DNA of 64,000 nucleotides, taken from positions 310,001 to 374,000 of the forward strand of contig MSDW01000002.1 of NCBI GenBank assembly GCA_001914405.1, given 5' to 3'. The notes below the pieces were generated by a model. It had not been told where the DNA came from and did not search any database. It saw nothing but the letters and a program-made list of their open reading frames with translations. Position 1 is the first letter of the stretch; each line of letters begins with the position of its first letter. Source of the DNA: Candidatus Methanohalarchaeum thermophilum. Its GTDB lineage: Archaea; Halobacteriota; Methanonatronarchaeia; Methanonatronarchaeales; Methanonatronarchaeaceae. This document shows positions 5,072-45,177 of this stretch, piece by piece. The position numbers and the translations under genes are program-made.

Positions 5072-5482
5072 TTAACTCCGCTTACCTAGGATTTCCAGTA
5101 ACTCTTTTGCATTCACTATTTTGGTTCCTTTGAATTCTTCTATTTTCAACAAATGTTGGTCTCCTGAAACTATGTAATCCGCTTCTCCTTCTTTTGCACA
5201 TTCAAGGAACTTGTTATCTGAAGTGTCTTCTTTTATTATATCCAAATCTTGTTTTGGAGATATAGTTTCTGCTAAAAAAAGAATGTATTCTATTAAGTTA
5301 TTTATCTCCTCTTCATCTAGTCCAAATTTATCATAAGAAAGTACCTTTCTCAGTTCATTCAGAATAGGGGGTGAGGTAATTAACTTTAGTTCTCCTTCTT
5401 CTATCAATTCAATGATCTCTGACTCATTTCCCTCCCAAAAAATAGCTGAAACTATGACATTTGTGTCAGATACGATTTTCAT
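5072..5482 (-). CDS. PIN-domain toxin (TIGR00305-like)
   Basis: 136 aa. Acidic PIN residues appear in IVSDTNVIVSA (residue 6), LNELRKV, TSDNKFLECA and VSGDQHLL near the C-terminus. PIN toxins of this type cleave RNA and pair with AbrB-type antitoxins. I start it at ATG 5480-5482, since the 12 codons upstream in the same frame are IS terminal palindrome. An IS sits directly before this ATG; on its far side is an AbrB antitoxin on the same strand, so the two were one operon. Confidence 0.75.
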   Translation of the reverse strand: MKIVSDTNVIVSAIFWEGNESEIIELIEEGELKLITSPPILNELRKVLSYDKFGLDEEEINNLIEYILFLAETISPKQDLDIIKEDTSDNKFLECAKEGEADYIVSGDQHLLKIEEFKGTKIVNAKELLEILGKRS

Positions 5483-5603
5483 CTTATCAGTTGGCTGGAA
5501 ACACCTTCCTAAATCCAAAATTTAGGTAGGTGAGGAAAGCCAACATTTGTTCTTATATGGAGCAAGGTTTAAGTAGTTTAGGTAATTTAATGAATATGTA
5601 GGT

Positions 5604-6803
5604 ATGCGGAGAACAGTAAAAATCAAACTAAGCCTAAACCAAAACCAACAGAAACTATTACAAGAAACGATAAAGCAATTCAAGCAAGCCTGCCAAAGAG
5701 TAGTTGACTACGGATGGAACAGAAATGGCTTAAAGACCTATCAAAAAAACAAGCTACACAAAGCCACTTACAGCGAAATACGGGAAAAAACTGACTTACC
5801 AGCTAACTTGGTGATTAGAGCAAGAGACAGAGCATCAGAAACAATAAAAGCCTGCGTAAAAAAAATCAAAAACGGAGAGAAAGCCAGCAAACCAACCTTC
5901 AAATCCGATTCAATAGTCTATGACAAAAGAACACTAACAGTTTGGCTAGAAGAAGAAAGATGTTCTATTGCAACAACTAATGGCAGAATCAAAGCAGATT
6001 TTGTATTGCCAAATGAATACAACGATTATTATGACAAATACCTAAACAATGGTTGGAAAATCACTCAATCCACGATAGAAAAACATAGTTATGAAGACGA
6101 TGAACCATTTTATCTGCATCTCGGACTAGAGAAAGAAATACAAAAAAATCAGTCAGTTAACCCAACCATCATGGGAATCGACCTAGGGATAGAGAACCTA
6201 GCAGTTACTTCTACAGGTAGATTTTATTCTGGAACCGAATTGTTTAGCAGAAGAGAACGCTACGAGGAGGTGCGTGGAAAGCTACAGGCAAAAGGCACCC
6301 GCAGCGCTCACCTAACAATAAAACAGATGAGTGGGCGGGAAAACCGCTTCGCCTGTGACACGCTCCACCGCATCTCCAAAAAAATCGTAGAAGAAGCAAT
6401 ATCTAAGGATGTTGATGTAATAGCTATGGAAGAACTAGAAAAAATAAGACAAAAAATATCAAACAACAAGAAGTTCCAGACATGGGCGTTCAAGAAACTA
6501 CAAGAATACATCGAATACAAAGCTAACGAAAGAGGGATAGAGGTAAAGTTTGTTGACCCAAAATACACTAGCCAACGCTGCTCACGATGTGGAACCACAC
6601 TAAAACAGAATCGAATTAACCAACATTTTGAATGCAAAGACTGTGGTTACAGAGTTGATAGTGATTATAATGCCGCTAAGAACATTGGATTTAAAACTAT
6701 CCTTGACGGGCAAATGTCCCAGTCAAGGATGGGCAACGGTCAACTTGCCCTAAAGTCAGGAGTGTTGAAACCGAACGGGAACTACTACTCCTACCCAAAT
6801 TAA
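5604..6803 (+). CDS. tnpB: TnpB RNA-guided nuclease (IS1341-type)
   Basis: 399 aa and full length. RuvC-I GIDLGIENLA, RuvC-II glutamate in VIAMEELEKIR, zinc ribbon CSRCG...CKDCG, and RuvC-III aspartate in DSDYNAAKNIG are all present, so the nuclease could be active. The 3' end (about 6690-6835) is likely the start of its guide RNA scaffold: GGGCAAATGTCCC and GGGCAACGGTCAACTTGCCC can fold there. It runs opposite to the toxin-antitoxin genes it interrupts. Confidence 0.88.
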   Translation: MRRTVKIKLSLNQNQQKLLQETIKQFKQACQRVVDYGWNRNGLKTYQKNKLHKATYSEIREKTDLPANLVIRARDRASETIKACVKKIKNGEKASKPTFKSDSIVYDKRTLTVWLEEERCSIATTNGRIKADFVLPNEYNDYYDKYLNNGWKITQSTIEKHSYEDDEPFYLHLGLEKEIQKNQSVNPTIMGIDLGIENLAVTSTGRFYSGTELFSRRERYEEVRGKLQAKGTRSAHLTIKQMSGRENRFACDTLHRISKKIVEEAISKDVDVIAMEELEKIRQKISNNKKFQTWAFKKLQEYIEYKANERGIEVKFVDPKYTSQRCSRCGTTLKQNRINQHFECKDCGYRVDSDYNAAKNIGFKTILDGQMSQSRMGNGQLALKSGVLKPNGNYYSYPN

Positions 6804-6871
6804 AATGGGTTTGAGGTGGAGCTCACTGACAAGCCCCTTCCCTAATCAAAGATTAGGAAGGGGTAGTTGAC
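6690..6871 (+). ncRNA. Predicted TnpB guide (omega) RNA region
   Basis: In IS200/IS605 elements the guide RNA overlaps the tnpB 3' end and finishes at the right end, using the flanking chromosome as guide. This stretch has two G/C-rich self-complementary blocks and the right-end palindrome. The guide would read the antitoxin 3' end from 6872 on. The assignment is by position and fold only. Confidence 0.45.
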
Positions 6872-6873
6872 TT

Positions 6874-7131
6874 TTAGTCTTCTCTGGCTTCATTAATCGC
6901 TTCTTCAATATCCTCTTTTTCGATTCCAAGTTTTTTAATTTTCTCTCTTATAGGTTCAGTTATCTCTGAAAAAATTCCTTTTTCTGGTTCAGATAATTTC
7001 TTCAAGACAATTCTATCTCCGGTGTTGTAAGTCAAGAGTAACGTTCCTTTTTCTAATCCTAGTTCATCTCTTATTTCTTTAGGGATTACAACTTGTCCTT
7101 TTGATGAGGTCCTAGTTACGGAAAGAGGCAC
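6874..7131 (-). CDS. AbrB/SpoVT-family antitoxin
   Basis: 85 aa. Starts MPLSVTRTSSKGQVVIPKEI, a classic AbrB swapped-hairpin DNA-binding domain, followed by LGLEKGTLLLTY and an acidic helical tail that should bind a PIN toxin. The IS right tip lies two bases from its stop codon, and the cognate PIN gene lies beyond the IS. Antitoxin and toxin are thus separated by 1.39 kb. Confidence 0.8.
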   Translation of the reverse strand: MPLSVTRTSSKGQVVIPKEIRDELGLEKGTLLLTYNTGDRIVLKKLSEPEKGIFSEITEPIREKIKKLGIEKEDIEEAINEARED

Positions 7132-7366: not shown

Positions 7367-7765
7367 GTGAACTACCCGCTCGGCGGAGTCGAGGGGCTTC
7401 CCGAAGATAAACACGACATCTGAATGATGTCTTCGGTCGGCCTGTTCACAAGGCCCGATGCCATCCATCTCACCTTCCTGAAAGAAGGAAAATTCTTGAG
7501 AGATGGCACATTTCCTAAAAAGTTCTTCATGCCTCTTAAACCAATATTTAGACTCGCATTCCTATCCCTATGATCCTGGTGACCACATCTATGGCATTCA
7601 AATCTCCGCCCATTCTTGTTTTTCTTCTCTATATCACCACAAACGGGACACATCTGTGAAGTATCCTCTGAAACCATCAAAGAATACATCAATCAAGTCG
7701 AAAAATTATAAACACGGCATCCACCCCCATAGCAGAGCCATGAGGTTCTCTGCCTTAAAATATAT
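7367..7765 (-). mobile_element. Internally deleted IS605 copy (about 400 bp)
   Basis: It has the same ends as the complete element at 8504-10273, but the tnpB 3' part (to 7658) is joined directly to the tnpA 3' part (from 7670). The junction GAAGTATCCTCTG is shared, with one mismatch, by tnpB (8795-8807) and tnpA (10168-10180) of the complete copy. The 1373-bp deletion therefore happened between 13-bp near-identical repeats. The product is a non-autonomous element. Confidence 0.85.
7372..7670 (-). pseudogene. tnpB: tnpB C-terminal fragment
   Basis: Encodes the zinc ribbon (CPVCG...CHRCG) and RuvC-III HRDRNASLNIG of a TnpB almost identical to the one at 8509-9768. The RuvC-I and II parts are missing because of the internal deletion. 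It could still donate or encode guide-RNA sequence, since the right end is intact. Confidence 0.85.
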
Positions 7766-18304: not shown

Positions 18305-18741
18305 GTCAACTACCCCTACCAAAATCAAAGATTTTGGAAGGGGCTTGTGTATGATAGGACCAGACCACATGTACAATTTAATTATCGGTTTCCTCGGAGA
18401 ACTTCCGTTACACACAGAGAGGTTCTCGCTCATCTAGAACCGATTCCAAGGGCCAGTTGACCGTGACCCATCCACTTCTGGGAACCGAACATGGTCAGTG
18501 GTTCCGTCGGCTCTCGCGAGCACGCTTTTGCCCGAAGCGGAAAAGTTCAGGTTCTCAAGCATGGTAGCGTTCCCCGAAGAAGCGGTTTTCTCTCCTTTAA
18601 GAGAGTGCCTTAAACCAGGAGCCAACCATTCAAACCTATTGACTTTGACCAAAAATATGTGTTCTATAGCCATCTAAGCATTACCTCAATTCCTCTCCCA
18701 CCTAATCAGAGATTAGGAAGGAGTCTCCTTGAGGTGAAAAG
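18305..18741 (-). mobile_element. Gene-free IS-derived element with RNA-like interior (type 2, copy 1)
   Basis: On the minus strand: target TTCAT, left tip CTTTTCACCTCAAGGAGA with palindrome CCTAATC/GATTAGG, about 370 bp interior, then the right palindrome CCAAAATC/GATTTTGG and GGGGTAGTTGAC. The interior aligns with 42245-42629 (shared GGCACTC, GAACCT, GGTCAACTGGC, AATTAAATT blocks) while intervening bases vary, as in a structured RNA. A 79-codon open frame inside (18434-18673) is probably fortuitous. Confidence 0.75.
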
Positions 18742-18784
18742 ATGAAAAAAACATCTTAAAATTAATGTTTAAAACTAAAAGAGG

Positions 18785-42244: not shown

Positions 42245-42629
42245 GTCAACTACTCCTGCTATAATCAAAGATTTTGGAAGGGGCTTATATATGGTACTGC
42301 CAGACAATAGAGATAATTTAATTGTCTGTGTACTAAAATCAGCTTACACACCTATGTGCAGCGGTTGGATTCAACATCCCAGACTTAAGAGCCAGTTGAC
42401 CATGGCTCAACCCAGAGAAAAACTGCATAGCAGAACAACAAGGCAACCGCTCAAGGTTCCTAGCCCCTTAGTAAAGCTCAAAGGCCATTAACAGTTTTTT
42501 CCCACAAGGGAGTGCCTTTGGACCAGGTGTTACTATGTTAAAGAAGATACTAAGACTTTGGAGGCCTCAAACCTCAATTGCTCCTCTACCTAATTGGAGA
42601 TTAGAAAGGGGTTTCCTAGAGGTGAAAAG
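42245..42629 (-). mobile_element. Gene-free IS-derived element with RNA-like interior (type 2, copy 2)
   Basis: Minus strand: target TTCAT (antisense of ATGAA at 42630-42634), left tip CTTTTCACCTCTAGG, left palindrome CTAATC/GATTAG, interior alignable with 18305-18741, right palindrome ending in GTAGTTGAC. In antisense the left tip reads GAGGTGAAAAG, which is the ribosome-binding site of the oxidoreductase gene starting at 42630. Confidence 0.75.
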
Positions 42630-44345
42630 ATGAAGGATATTTGTATTTTGGTTGGTGGTAAGGCTGGTGAGGGGGTTAGGGCTTCTGGAGAAGTTATTGG
42701 AAGGGCTTTGAATAAGGCTGGCTATTATGTATATATTAGAGATGATTATCCGTCCTTGATCGAGGGAGGCCATAATTTTTCTCAGGTTCATGCTTCTGTT
42801 GAAGAAACTTTTAGCCAGAGGAAAGAGATAGATTTAATTGGAGCTTTTGATGAAAGAACGGTTTTTGAGCATCGTGACGAATTTAAGAGTGATTCAATTT
42901 TAGTTGTTAATTCGAATAAGGTTGAAGTTGATTCTGAGTTGAGGGAGGAGGTTAAGGATGTTGTTGGTTTACCGATTTCCGATTGGAGGAAGGAGGTTGG
43001 TGGCCCTGAAATAATTGAGAATACTGGTTTTGCCGCAGCAATAACTTCTCTAATTAGTTTGGATCCAGATTATTTAAATGAAGTTTTTAGACAGGAGTAT
43101 GGGGATAAAGCTGGTATTAATATAAGTTTAGCTGAAAAAACAATTGGAGAATGTAAAGATAGGTGTAAAGAGTTATTTGAATTAGATGAAGTTGATGAAG
43201 GTGGTAAAGCTCTTTTGTCTGGTAATCAATCTATTTTACTGGGAGCTGTTTCAGCGGGACTTGATTTTTATGTTGCTTATCCTATGACTCCTGCTACTTC
43301 TATACTGCATTTCGCTGCACAGAATCAAGAGGAATTAGGTCTTGATGTTATGCAACCTGAGAATGAGATAGCCGTAATTAATATTGCATTAGGAGCTTCT
43401 TTTGCTGGAAAAAAGAGCATGGTAGCTACTTCTGGAGGAGGATATGACCTGATGCAGGAAACTATCTCATTAGCAGGGATGAGTGAAACTCCCATACTGT
43501 TAATTGAAGCACAGAGACCTGGTCCAAGTACTGGAGTACCAACCTATACCTCACAGGCAGACCTTAAGTATGTGTTAGAAGCTGGGCACGGTGAATTCCC
43601 CCATATTGTTATAGCTCCTGGAGATGTAAGGCAAGCTTTTTATCTAACGGGAAAGGCACTCAACCATGCTTGGAGATATCAGACACCGGTTACTGTATTG
43701 GTGGATAAGCACTTGAGTGAAAGCCTAAAAAATACAGAAATAGATCCAGACAAGATAGAGGAAACAGAGCCCAAGAAACTACCTAAAGAACAAAATAATC
43801 GATTAGAACATAATAAAGAGACATATAATAGATATTTTTTAACTGAAGACGGTGTTTCTCCATTAAAGTTTCCTGGTAACGATGTAATAGTTAAAAACAG
43901 CAGTTACGAGCACTTAGAAAATGGTTTGACCACTGAAAAACCAATAGAAGTAGAAAAAATGCAGGAAAAAAGACTTAAAAAAACACAAAAGATCAAGAAG
44001 CAACTAAGAAATGAGCAAAGAGTTTGGTCAAAAGAAACAGGATCCGATACCTCGGTGATCACTTGGGGATCCACCAAGGGAGCCGTGATCGAAGCTACAA
44101 AAGAGATAGAAGACCCAATATCAGTTATTCAACCACTTTATATGTGGCCATTTCCAATTAAAGAACTTAAAAACAAATTAAGTAACAAGAAAACAGTAAT
44201 TTCAGTTGAAGCTAACTCTACAGCACAATTAACTAGCCTAATTAAAGAAAAAACAGAGATAAACATCGATAACACAATATTAAAATATAATAGTAGGCCT
44301 TTTTATCCAAAAGAATTAGCAAAGCAGATAATGGAGGTGATCTAA
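42630..44345 (+). CDS. 2-oxoacid:ferredoxin oxidoreductase, fused gamma-alpha subunit
   Basis: 571 aa. Residues 1-190 are the gamma-type domain (GGKAGEGVRASGEVIGRAL, RDDYPSLIEGGHNFSQVH). Residues 195-end are the alpha domain (YPMTPATSI, PENEIAVINIALGASFAGK, TSGGGYDLMQE, QRPGPSTGVPTYTSQADL). Oxidatively decarboxylates a 2-oxoacid with CoA and ferredoxin; which acid is not decidable. ATG 42630 is chosen, preceded by GAGGTGAAAAG. The beta subunit follows directly. Confidence 0.9.
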   Translation: MKDICILVGGKAGEGVRASGEVIGRALNKAGYYVYIRDDYPSLIEGGHNFSQVHASVEETFSQRKEIDLIGAFDERTVFEHRDEFKSDSILVVNSNKVEVDSELREEVKDVVGLPISDWRKEVGGPEIIENTGFAAAITSLISLDPDYLNEVFRQEYGDKAGINISLAEKTIGECKDRCKELFELDEVDEGGKALLSGNQSILLGAVSAGLDFYVAYPMTPATSILHFAAQNQEELGLDVMQPENEIAVINIALGASFAGKKSMVATSGGGYDLMQETISLAGMSETPILLIEAQRPGPSTGVPTYTSQADLKYVLEAGHGEFPHIVIAPGDVRQAFYLTGKALNHAWRYQTPVTVLVDKHLSESLKNTEIDPDKIEETEPKKLPKEQNNRLEHNKETYNRYFLTEDGVSPLKFPGNDVIVKNSSYEHLENGLTTEKPIEVEKMQEKRLKKTQKIKKQLRNEQRVWSKETGSDTSVITWGSTKGAVIEATKEIEDPISVIQPLYMWPFPIKELKNKLSNKKTVISVEANSTAQLTSLIKEKTEINIDNTILKYNSRPFYPKELAKQIMEVI

Positions 44346-44346
44346 C

Positions 44347-45177
44347 ATGGATGAATTTGATACCTCTGCCACAAACACTTGGTGCCCTGGCTGCGGTAAT
44401 TTCGCTATCCTAAGAAGCTTTAAAGACGTCTTAAATAACTTAAATAAGGAAGAAGTTAAAAAGGAGGATATAGCAATTACCACAGGAATCGGATGCCACG
44501 GAAAGATCTTTGATTACCTAGATGTAAGCGGCTTCTACTCTATCCACGGCAGAGCAGCTGCAACCGCAACAGGAATAAAAATAGGTAACCCAGATCTAGA
44601 AGTAATAAGCTTCGAAGGAGATGGAGACGCATACAACGAAGGAATAAGCCACCTAGTCCACGCAGCAAGAAGAAACATAGATATAACCGTACTAGTACAC
44701 GACAACAAGATCTACGCTCTAACAACCGGCCAGTTCACGCCAACAACTCCAATCGGATACAAAGGAAAATCAACTCCAAAAGGAAACATAGAACCACCAC
44801 TAAACCCAATAGAATTCATGATCGCAAGTAAAGCATCCTTCGTAGCCAGAGGATTCGCAGGAGACAGAAAACACCTAAAAAACCTCATACACAAATCAAT
44901 AAAACACAAAGGATTCTCCATAATCAATATACTACAACCAACAGTAGCATTCCAAAACACATGGAAATACTTTAGAGAAAGAGTCTACAAACTACAAGAA
45001 ACCAAACACGACCCAAAAAACAAGATACAGGCCATAAAAAAATCCAAAGAAAACGAACAAAAAATCCCAATAGGAATATTCTACAAAAAACAAAGAAAAA
45101 CATACCAACAAGCAATAAACGAACAAACAACCAACAAAAAACAAAACATACACAAAGTAATCGAAAACCTAAAATAA
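44347..45177 (+). CDS. 2-oxoacid:ferredoxin oxidoreductase, beta subunit
   Basis: 276 aa. TPP-binding subunit: WCPGCGNFAILRSF, GIGCHGKIFDYLDVSGF, HGRAAATATGIKIGNPDLEV, and the Mg/TPP motif GDGDAYNEG with DNKIYALTTGQFTPTTP. A perfect GGAGGTGATC precedes the ATG, inside the end of the alpha gene, so the two are coupled. The two-subunit form (gamma-alpha plus beta) is common in halophilic archaea. Confidence 0.92.
   Translation: MDEFDTSATNTWCPGCGNFAILRSFKDVLNNLNKEEVKKEDIAITTGIGCHGKIFDYLDVSGFYSIHGRAAATATGIKIGNPDLEVISFEGDGDAYNEGISHLVHAARRNIDITVLVHDNKIYALTTGQFTPTTPIGYKGKSTPKGNIEPPLNPIEFMIASKASFVARGFAGDRKHLKNLIHKSIKHKGFSIINILQPTVAFQNTWKYFRERVYKLQETKHDPKNKIQAIKKSKENEQKIPIGIFYKKQRKTYQQAINEQTTNKKQNIHKVIENLK

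Follow-up and report, generated by a model that had tools for sequence, protein, structure and literature searches.

Palindrome-associated transposable elements (PATEs) of Haloquadratum walsbyi lack a transposase, have near-terminal palindromes, are related to IS605 and insert without target duplication, and end-only remnants of them arise by repeat-mediated deletion of the core (PMC3119063). Neither 'TTCAT' nor 'start codon' occurs in the main text of that report. For IS200/IS605 elements, insertion on the 3' side of a fixed target of four or five nucleotides has been described (PMC7290912). The element analyzed here lies directly upstream of a gene for a 2-oxoacid:acceptor oxidoreductase, in a 64,000-nt window (C2:310001-374000) of the 2.14-Mb, four-contig genome of Candidatus Methanohalarchaeum thermophilum (Table 1). 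Like the PATEs, it is transposase-free, has a near-terminal palindrome and shows no target duplication; what differs is that a TTCAT target and a tip resembling a Shine-Dalgarno (SD) sequence belong to the element here. Like IS200/IS605 elements, its family inserts 3' of a pentanucleotide, has subterminal hairpins and has tnpB partners in the genome, but the element itself carries neither tnpA nor tnpB. We consider it likely that this is a PATE-like element that landed at the antisense of a start codon, that the number of landings at starts involves no preference for them, and that the SD-like tip derives from a hairpin that masks it in fresh insertions and opens by decay.

Table 1. Features of the oxidoreductase locus and of related insertions in the window.
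Feature	Coordinates	Strand	Basis and remarks
Non-autonomous IS200/IS605-type element (PATE-like)	42245-42629	-	Left end 42629, right end 42245; copies, family alignment, flank comparison
Right end and omega-RNA-like 3' scaffold (putative)	42245-42430	-	Shared with the tnpB element (5483) and with a further five copies
Left-end subterminal imperfect palindrome	42571-42623	+	Outer arms ACCTC...GAGGT can pair the SD; inner stem decayed
Left-end tip, antisense GAGGTGAAAAG, SD-like	42619-42629	+	GAGGTG ends 5 nt before ATG; sequence, spacing distribution, anti-SD
Target TTCAT (+ strand ATGAA, oxidoreductase start codon)	42630-42634	-	Sequence, BLAST edge
2-oxoacid:acceptor oxidoreductase subunit alpha, 571 aa	42630-44345	+	TIGR03710 5.6e-165; PF01855/PF01558; homologue N-termini
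Oxidoreductase beta subunit, next gene	44347-45177	+	PF02775, PF12367
437-bp relative with intact left-end hairpin	18305-18741	-	No gene starts at the flanking ATGAA (18742-18746)
PIN-domain toxin, ATG abutting element	5072-5482	-	PF13470 1.6e-19; tip CAACTGATAAG, no SD
tnpB-carrying element, target TTCAT (5478-5482)	5483-6871	+	tnpB 5604-6803; PF07282 2.5e-25, NF040570 2.3e-57
MazE-like antitoxin gene	6874-7131	-	PF04014 2.3e-10; tnpB element separates it from the PIN gene

At 385 bp, the element is too short for a transposase. BLAST recovered one full-length copy (C2:196435-196824, 92%), and both ends are common to seven further, more distant copies. The ends are homologous to those of these relatives, and the 3' part is homologous to that of the tnpB-carrying element; that is, IS605-like ends occur without a transposase gene, as in PATEs. 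We regard it as an unexceptional representative of a type already known. In the aligned family copies and in the tnpB-carrying element, the internal block GGTCAACT is invariant, and the right end reads GTTGA(C), with a terminal AGTTGAC. This shared 3' region is as expected of a right end that would bear an omega-RNA, and TTCAT would be the transposon-adjacent motif of that TnpB system. The conservation with a tnpB element recalls the described TnpB omega-RNA systems; unlike in these, the omega-RNA here is putative, and Rfam gave no match at the gathering threshold. A covariation between a right-end GTTNAC and an upstream GTNAAC block, which fits five cases, was dropped, the block being absent in the copy at the oxidoreductase.

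The Y1 HUH transposase TnpA, absent inside the element, is represented elsewhere in the genome by 24 PF01797 matches, 17 of which contain stop codons. Together with 89 TnpB-domain matches, they make up a genome that is unusually dense in IS605-type relics. A larger second class of left ends has TTTAT followed by CTTAGTGGTTGAGAAGAC, and two near-identical minus-strand right ends with a GACCGAAGACATCATTCAGATGTCG block, belonging to a different element type, lie about 1.1 kb apart in the window, at 7367 and 8504.

When the element and its flank were used as a query against the genome, with no target imposed, TTCAT was found at the left boundary of all 9 copies, and every left-end similarity stopped exactly at its outer edge (query base 7). 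The bases outside ATGAA, the complement of TTCAT, differ between insertions; the right flanks contain no TTCAT duplicate, and no target duplication appears in the joined flanks. From these observations we conclude that TTCAT is the target. The coincidence of element boundary and TTCAT exceeds chance, and the IS200/IS605 family inserts in this manner, on the 3' side of a constant short motif that is not duplicated. These results confirm a proposal of the first-pass annotation of this DNA, namely that three elements in the window use TTCAT.

The same annotation had described the tip of the element as directly preceding the oxidoreductase ATG. This is correct: the tip ends at position 42629, and ATGAAG, the beginning of the gene, follows immediately. 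The homologues of the alpha subunit begin at about the same residue (MQEYSLLIGGKAGEG, MNDYSICIGGQAGEG), in support of this start. In the search for an empty site, the available genomes of the same family and the same class yielded no orthologue of this gene (the best match elsewhere is 44% identical), and a scan of genome contigs yielded no close homologue. The tnpB-carrying element likewise abuts the ATG of the PIN toxin gene, as had been noted, with the complement of its target providing that ATG. Once the flanks are joined, the antitoxin stop codon TAA is followed by AA and then by the PIN ATG; the insertion therefore interrupted a toxin-antitoxin operon where its two genes meet. In the same-family and same-class genomes, PIN homologues appear to overlap or directly follow the upstream gene. 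At the 437-bp relative, the tip is as at the oxidoreductase (18731-18741) and is followed by ATGAAAAAAACATCTTAA, a frame of five codons. Thus, of the three window insertions, those at 42630 and 5482 sit at gene starts, and that at 18742 does not.

Two further convincing starts lie outside the window. The insertion at C1:186534 precedes a MarR regulator (PF01047) whose element-free orthologue in the same family starts at the same residue. The insertion at C1:1319098 precedes a 273-aa hydrolase-like gene with homologues in the same-family genome. The latter insertion is a 56-bp end-only element (C1:1319048-1319103), in which the left tip is fused via one hairpin to a right-end-like GGGGTAGCTGAC, and which places GAGGTGAGAAG before the ATG. 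It appears core-deleted, as in the Haloquadratum PATEs. The gene on its other side we take, by eye, to be endonuclease V-like.

Genome-wide, BLAST, pattern and profile searches yielded 17 left ends of the TTCAT class, including six near-identical copies. Four of these insertions are at convincing gene starts (oxidoreductase, PIN, MarR and hydrolase-like), while the other 13 have no convincing gene behind ATGAA. The expectation was derived from 464 kb of sequence, consisting of 20 stretches (400 kb) and the window, with genes called by a simple home-made caller; this sample is slightly biased, as one stretch (L148) holds one of the insertions. It contains 367 called genes, 86 of which start with ATGAA, and 1761 TTCAT sites, of which 86 are at starts, 464 lie between genes and 1211 lie within them. 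Starts therefore make up 4.9% of all sites (86/1761), and 15.6% of those outside gene interiors (86/550). Relative to random landing, 4/17 is an excess (P = 0.008). Relative to the non-disruptive sites it is not (P = 0.27), although a moderate true preference for starts would be compatible with this result, because there are only 17 insertions and six are near-identical. The proposal that frequent landing before start codons is a particular trait of the element therefore finds no support, and the comparison suggested along with it gives a start-codon excess against one background only. Since 4/17 does not significantly exceed the fraction expected for landing where genes survive, no preference is needed: the purge of gene-disrupting insertions accounts for the landing pattern. 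Both ends are defined for eleven insertions, and in their joined sites any ATG-initiated frame across the junction is at most 77 aa long.

We now turn to the tip. A 16S tail, GGATCACCTCCT, was found once in the genome and is complementary to GAGGTG, which is therefore a proper SD sequence. The distance from the end of native GAGGTG motifs to the start is mostly 5-9 nt, and at the oxidoreductase it is 5; the tip thus combines complementarity to the 16S tail with native spacing, and it ranks among the strongest SD matches of the sample. The reading of the tip as an antisense SD sequence is in this respect well founded. When the flanks are joined to restore the site before insertion, no SD precedes the oxidoreductase (AAATTGAGTAG ATG). 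In relatives without the element, the tip is absent before the oxidoreductase and MarR homologues (where proteins of only 39-50% identity were available), in agreement with the proposal that the element supplies it. A leaderless promoter in the joined site was considered and set aside: the TATA-like stretch leaves too little distance to the ATG, and the TATA profile rises only weakly. A GAGGTGA tip at good spacing is found at the oxidoreductase and at the hydrolase-like gene (C1:1319 kb), and the MarR gene has GAGGCGA. The tip at the PIN gene contains no SD.

The left-end hairpin of intact copies has GAGGT as its outer (3') arm. The arms are ACCTCAA/TTGAGGT at 18.7 kb, GTTGGCT/AGCCAAC at 5.5 kb and GTCGCAA/TTGCGAC at C1:95 kb. 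That is, the subfamily hairpins share an architecture but differ in their letters, and the arms still pair; each stem alone is modestly significant (P 0.02-0.04). Because subfamilies with the same target and other hairpin letters carry non-SD tips (CAACTGATAAG, CGACAATTAAG), we attribute the SD-like letters to the hairpin of a single subfamily. As in IS200/IS605 elements, these family hairpins are imperfect and subterminal, and they take the place of terminal inverted repeats. The intact ones at 18.7 kb and 5.5 kb give DNA folding z-scores of -3.6 and -5.4; in the oxidoreductase copy, where the hairpin is decayed, the z-score is 0.3.

The predicted consequences for the mRNA, which leave aside cell salt, temperature and translation coupling, differ accordingly. 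The SD is predicted to be unpaired with a probability of 0.001-0.03 in six intact copies (97-99.9% paired), and of 0.25-0.38 in the oxidoreductase copy, which is within the normal range for genes with a native SD (28th-37th percentile). It is predicted to be 39% unpaired in the MarR copy and 0.80 unpaired in the 56-bp remnant. Some decayed copies not before genes give 0.27-0.36, so that decay is not specific to gene-proximal copies. The earlier suggestion that the tip can keep the gene translated is thus doubtful for a fresh insertion. At the oxidoreductase, the sequence match is real and the ribosome may use it; on the predicted folding, the present ribosome-binding site of the gene is probably this tip or includes it.

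The reading that we favor can be laid out as follows. A transposase-free, PATE-like element inserted 3' of TTCAT, as the IS200/IS605 family does. The TTCAT that was used is the antisense of the oxidoreductase start codon, so that the coding sequence stayed intact. Insertions inside genes would be purged, and the remainder would fall on the available TTCAT sites, giving the observed level at starts. The GAGGTG tip would be fixed by its role as a hairpin arm in transposition, its resemblance to an SD being coincidental. After a fresh insertion, the SD would lie inside a strong mRNA hairpin and translation would probably be reduced; in the oxidoreductase copy, with its hairpin decayed, the tip is probably usable.

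Alternatively, target and tip could be an adaptation, whereby the element lands before starts, the gene stays translated and the cost of insertion is lowered. The organism's anti-SD, the tips at the oxidoreductase, hydrolase-like and MarR genes and the excess over all TTCAT sites would fit this idea. We nevertheless judge it quite improbable, given that the excess disappears against non-disruptive sites, that intact tips are predicted to be almost fully paired, that same-target subfamilies have non-SD tips, and that most insertions have no convincing gene behind ATGAA. It is also unlikely, though less so, that the SD match is decorative and the oxidoreductase is translated otherwise (leaderless, by re-initiation or from another start). 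As many as 154 of the 367 sampled genes show no SD, so that SD-free initiation is likely to be common, but the strength of this match and the conservation of the start argue for a role of the tip.

Exaptation by the host is a somewhat better possibility, if a tentative one: the position of the insertion would be neutral, and selection at the oxidoreductase would have kept the SD tip while the masking hairpin decayed. In line with this, the oxidoreductase copy has a consensus tip and a decayed hairpin, its 92% sister, which is not before a gene, has GAGATG, and at gene starts the hairpin is open or decayed in each of the three copies whose tip has GAGG. Against it, there is one such pair only, age is a confounder in that the intact copies are the recent ones, and decayed copies that do not lie near genes are open to much the same degree; for this last reason we discarded hairpin decay as proof of exaptation. 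The more general scheme, in which a transposon end masks the SD when fresh and frees it upon decay or core deletion, such that translational brakes mature into host ribosome-binding sites, we regard as doubtful.

Insertion sequences are known to bring promoters to neighboring genes; that they may supply a ribosome-binding site is considered less frequently. In this family, the TTCAT target explains how such insertions can spare the coding sequence, and the hairpin explains why the supplied SD may at first be hidden. As to the counts, they indicate that the apparent targeting of start codons needs no special mechanism.
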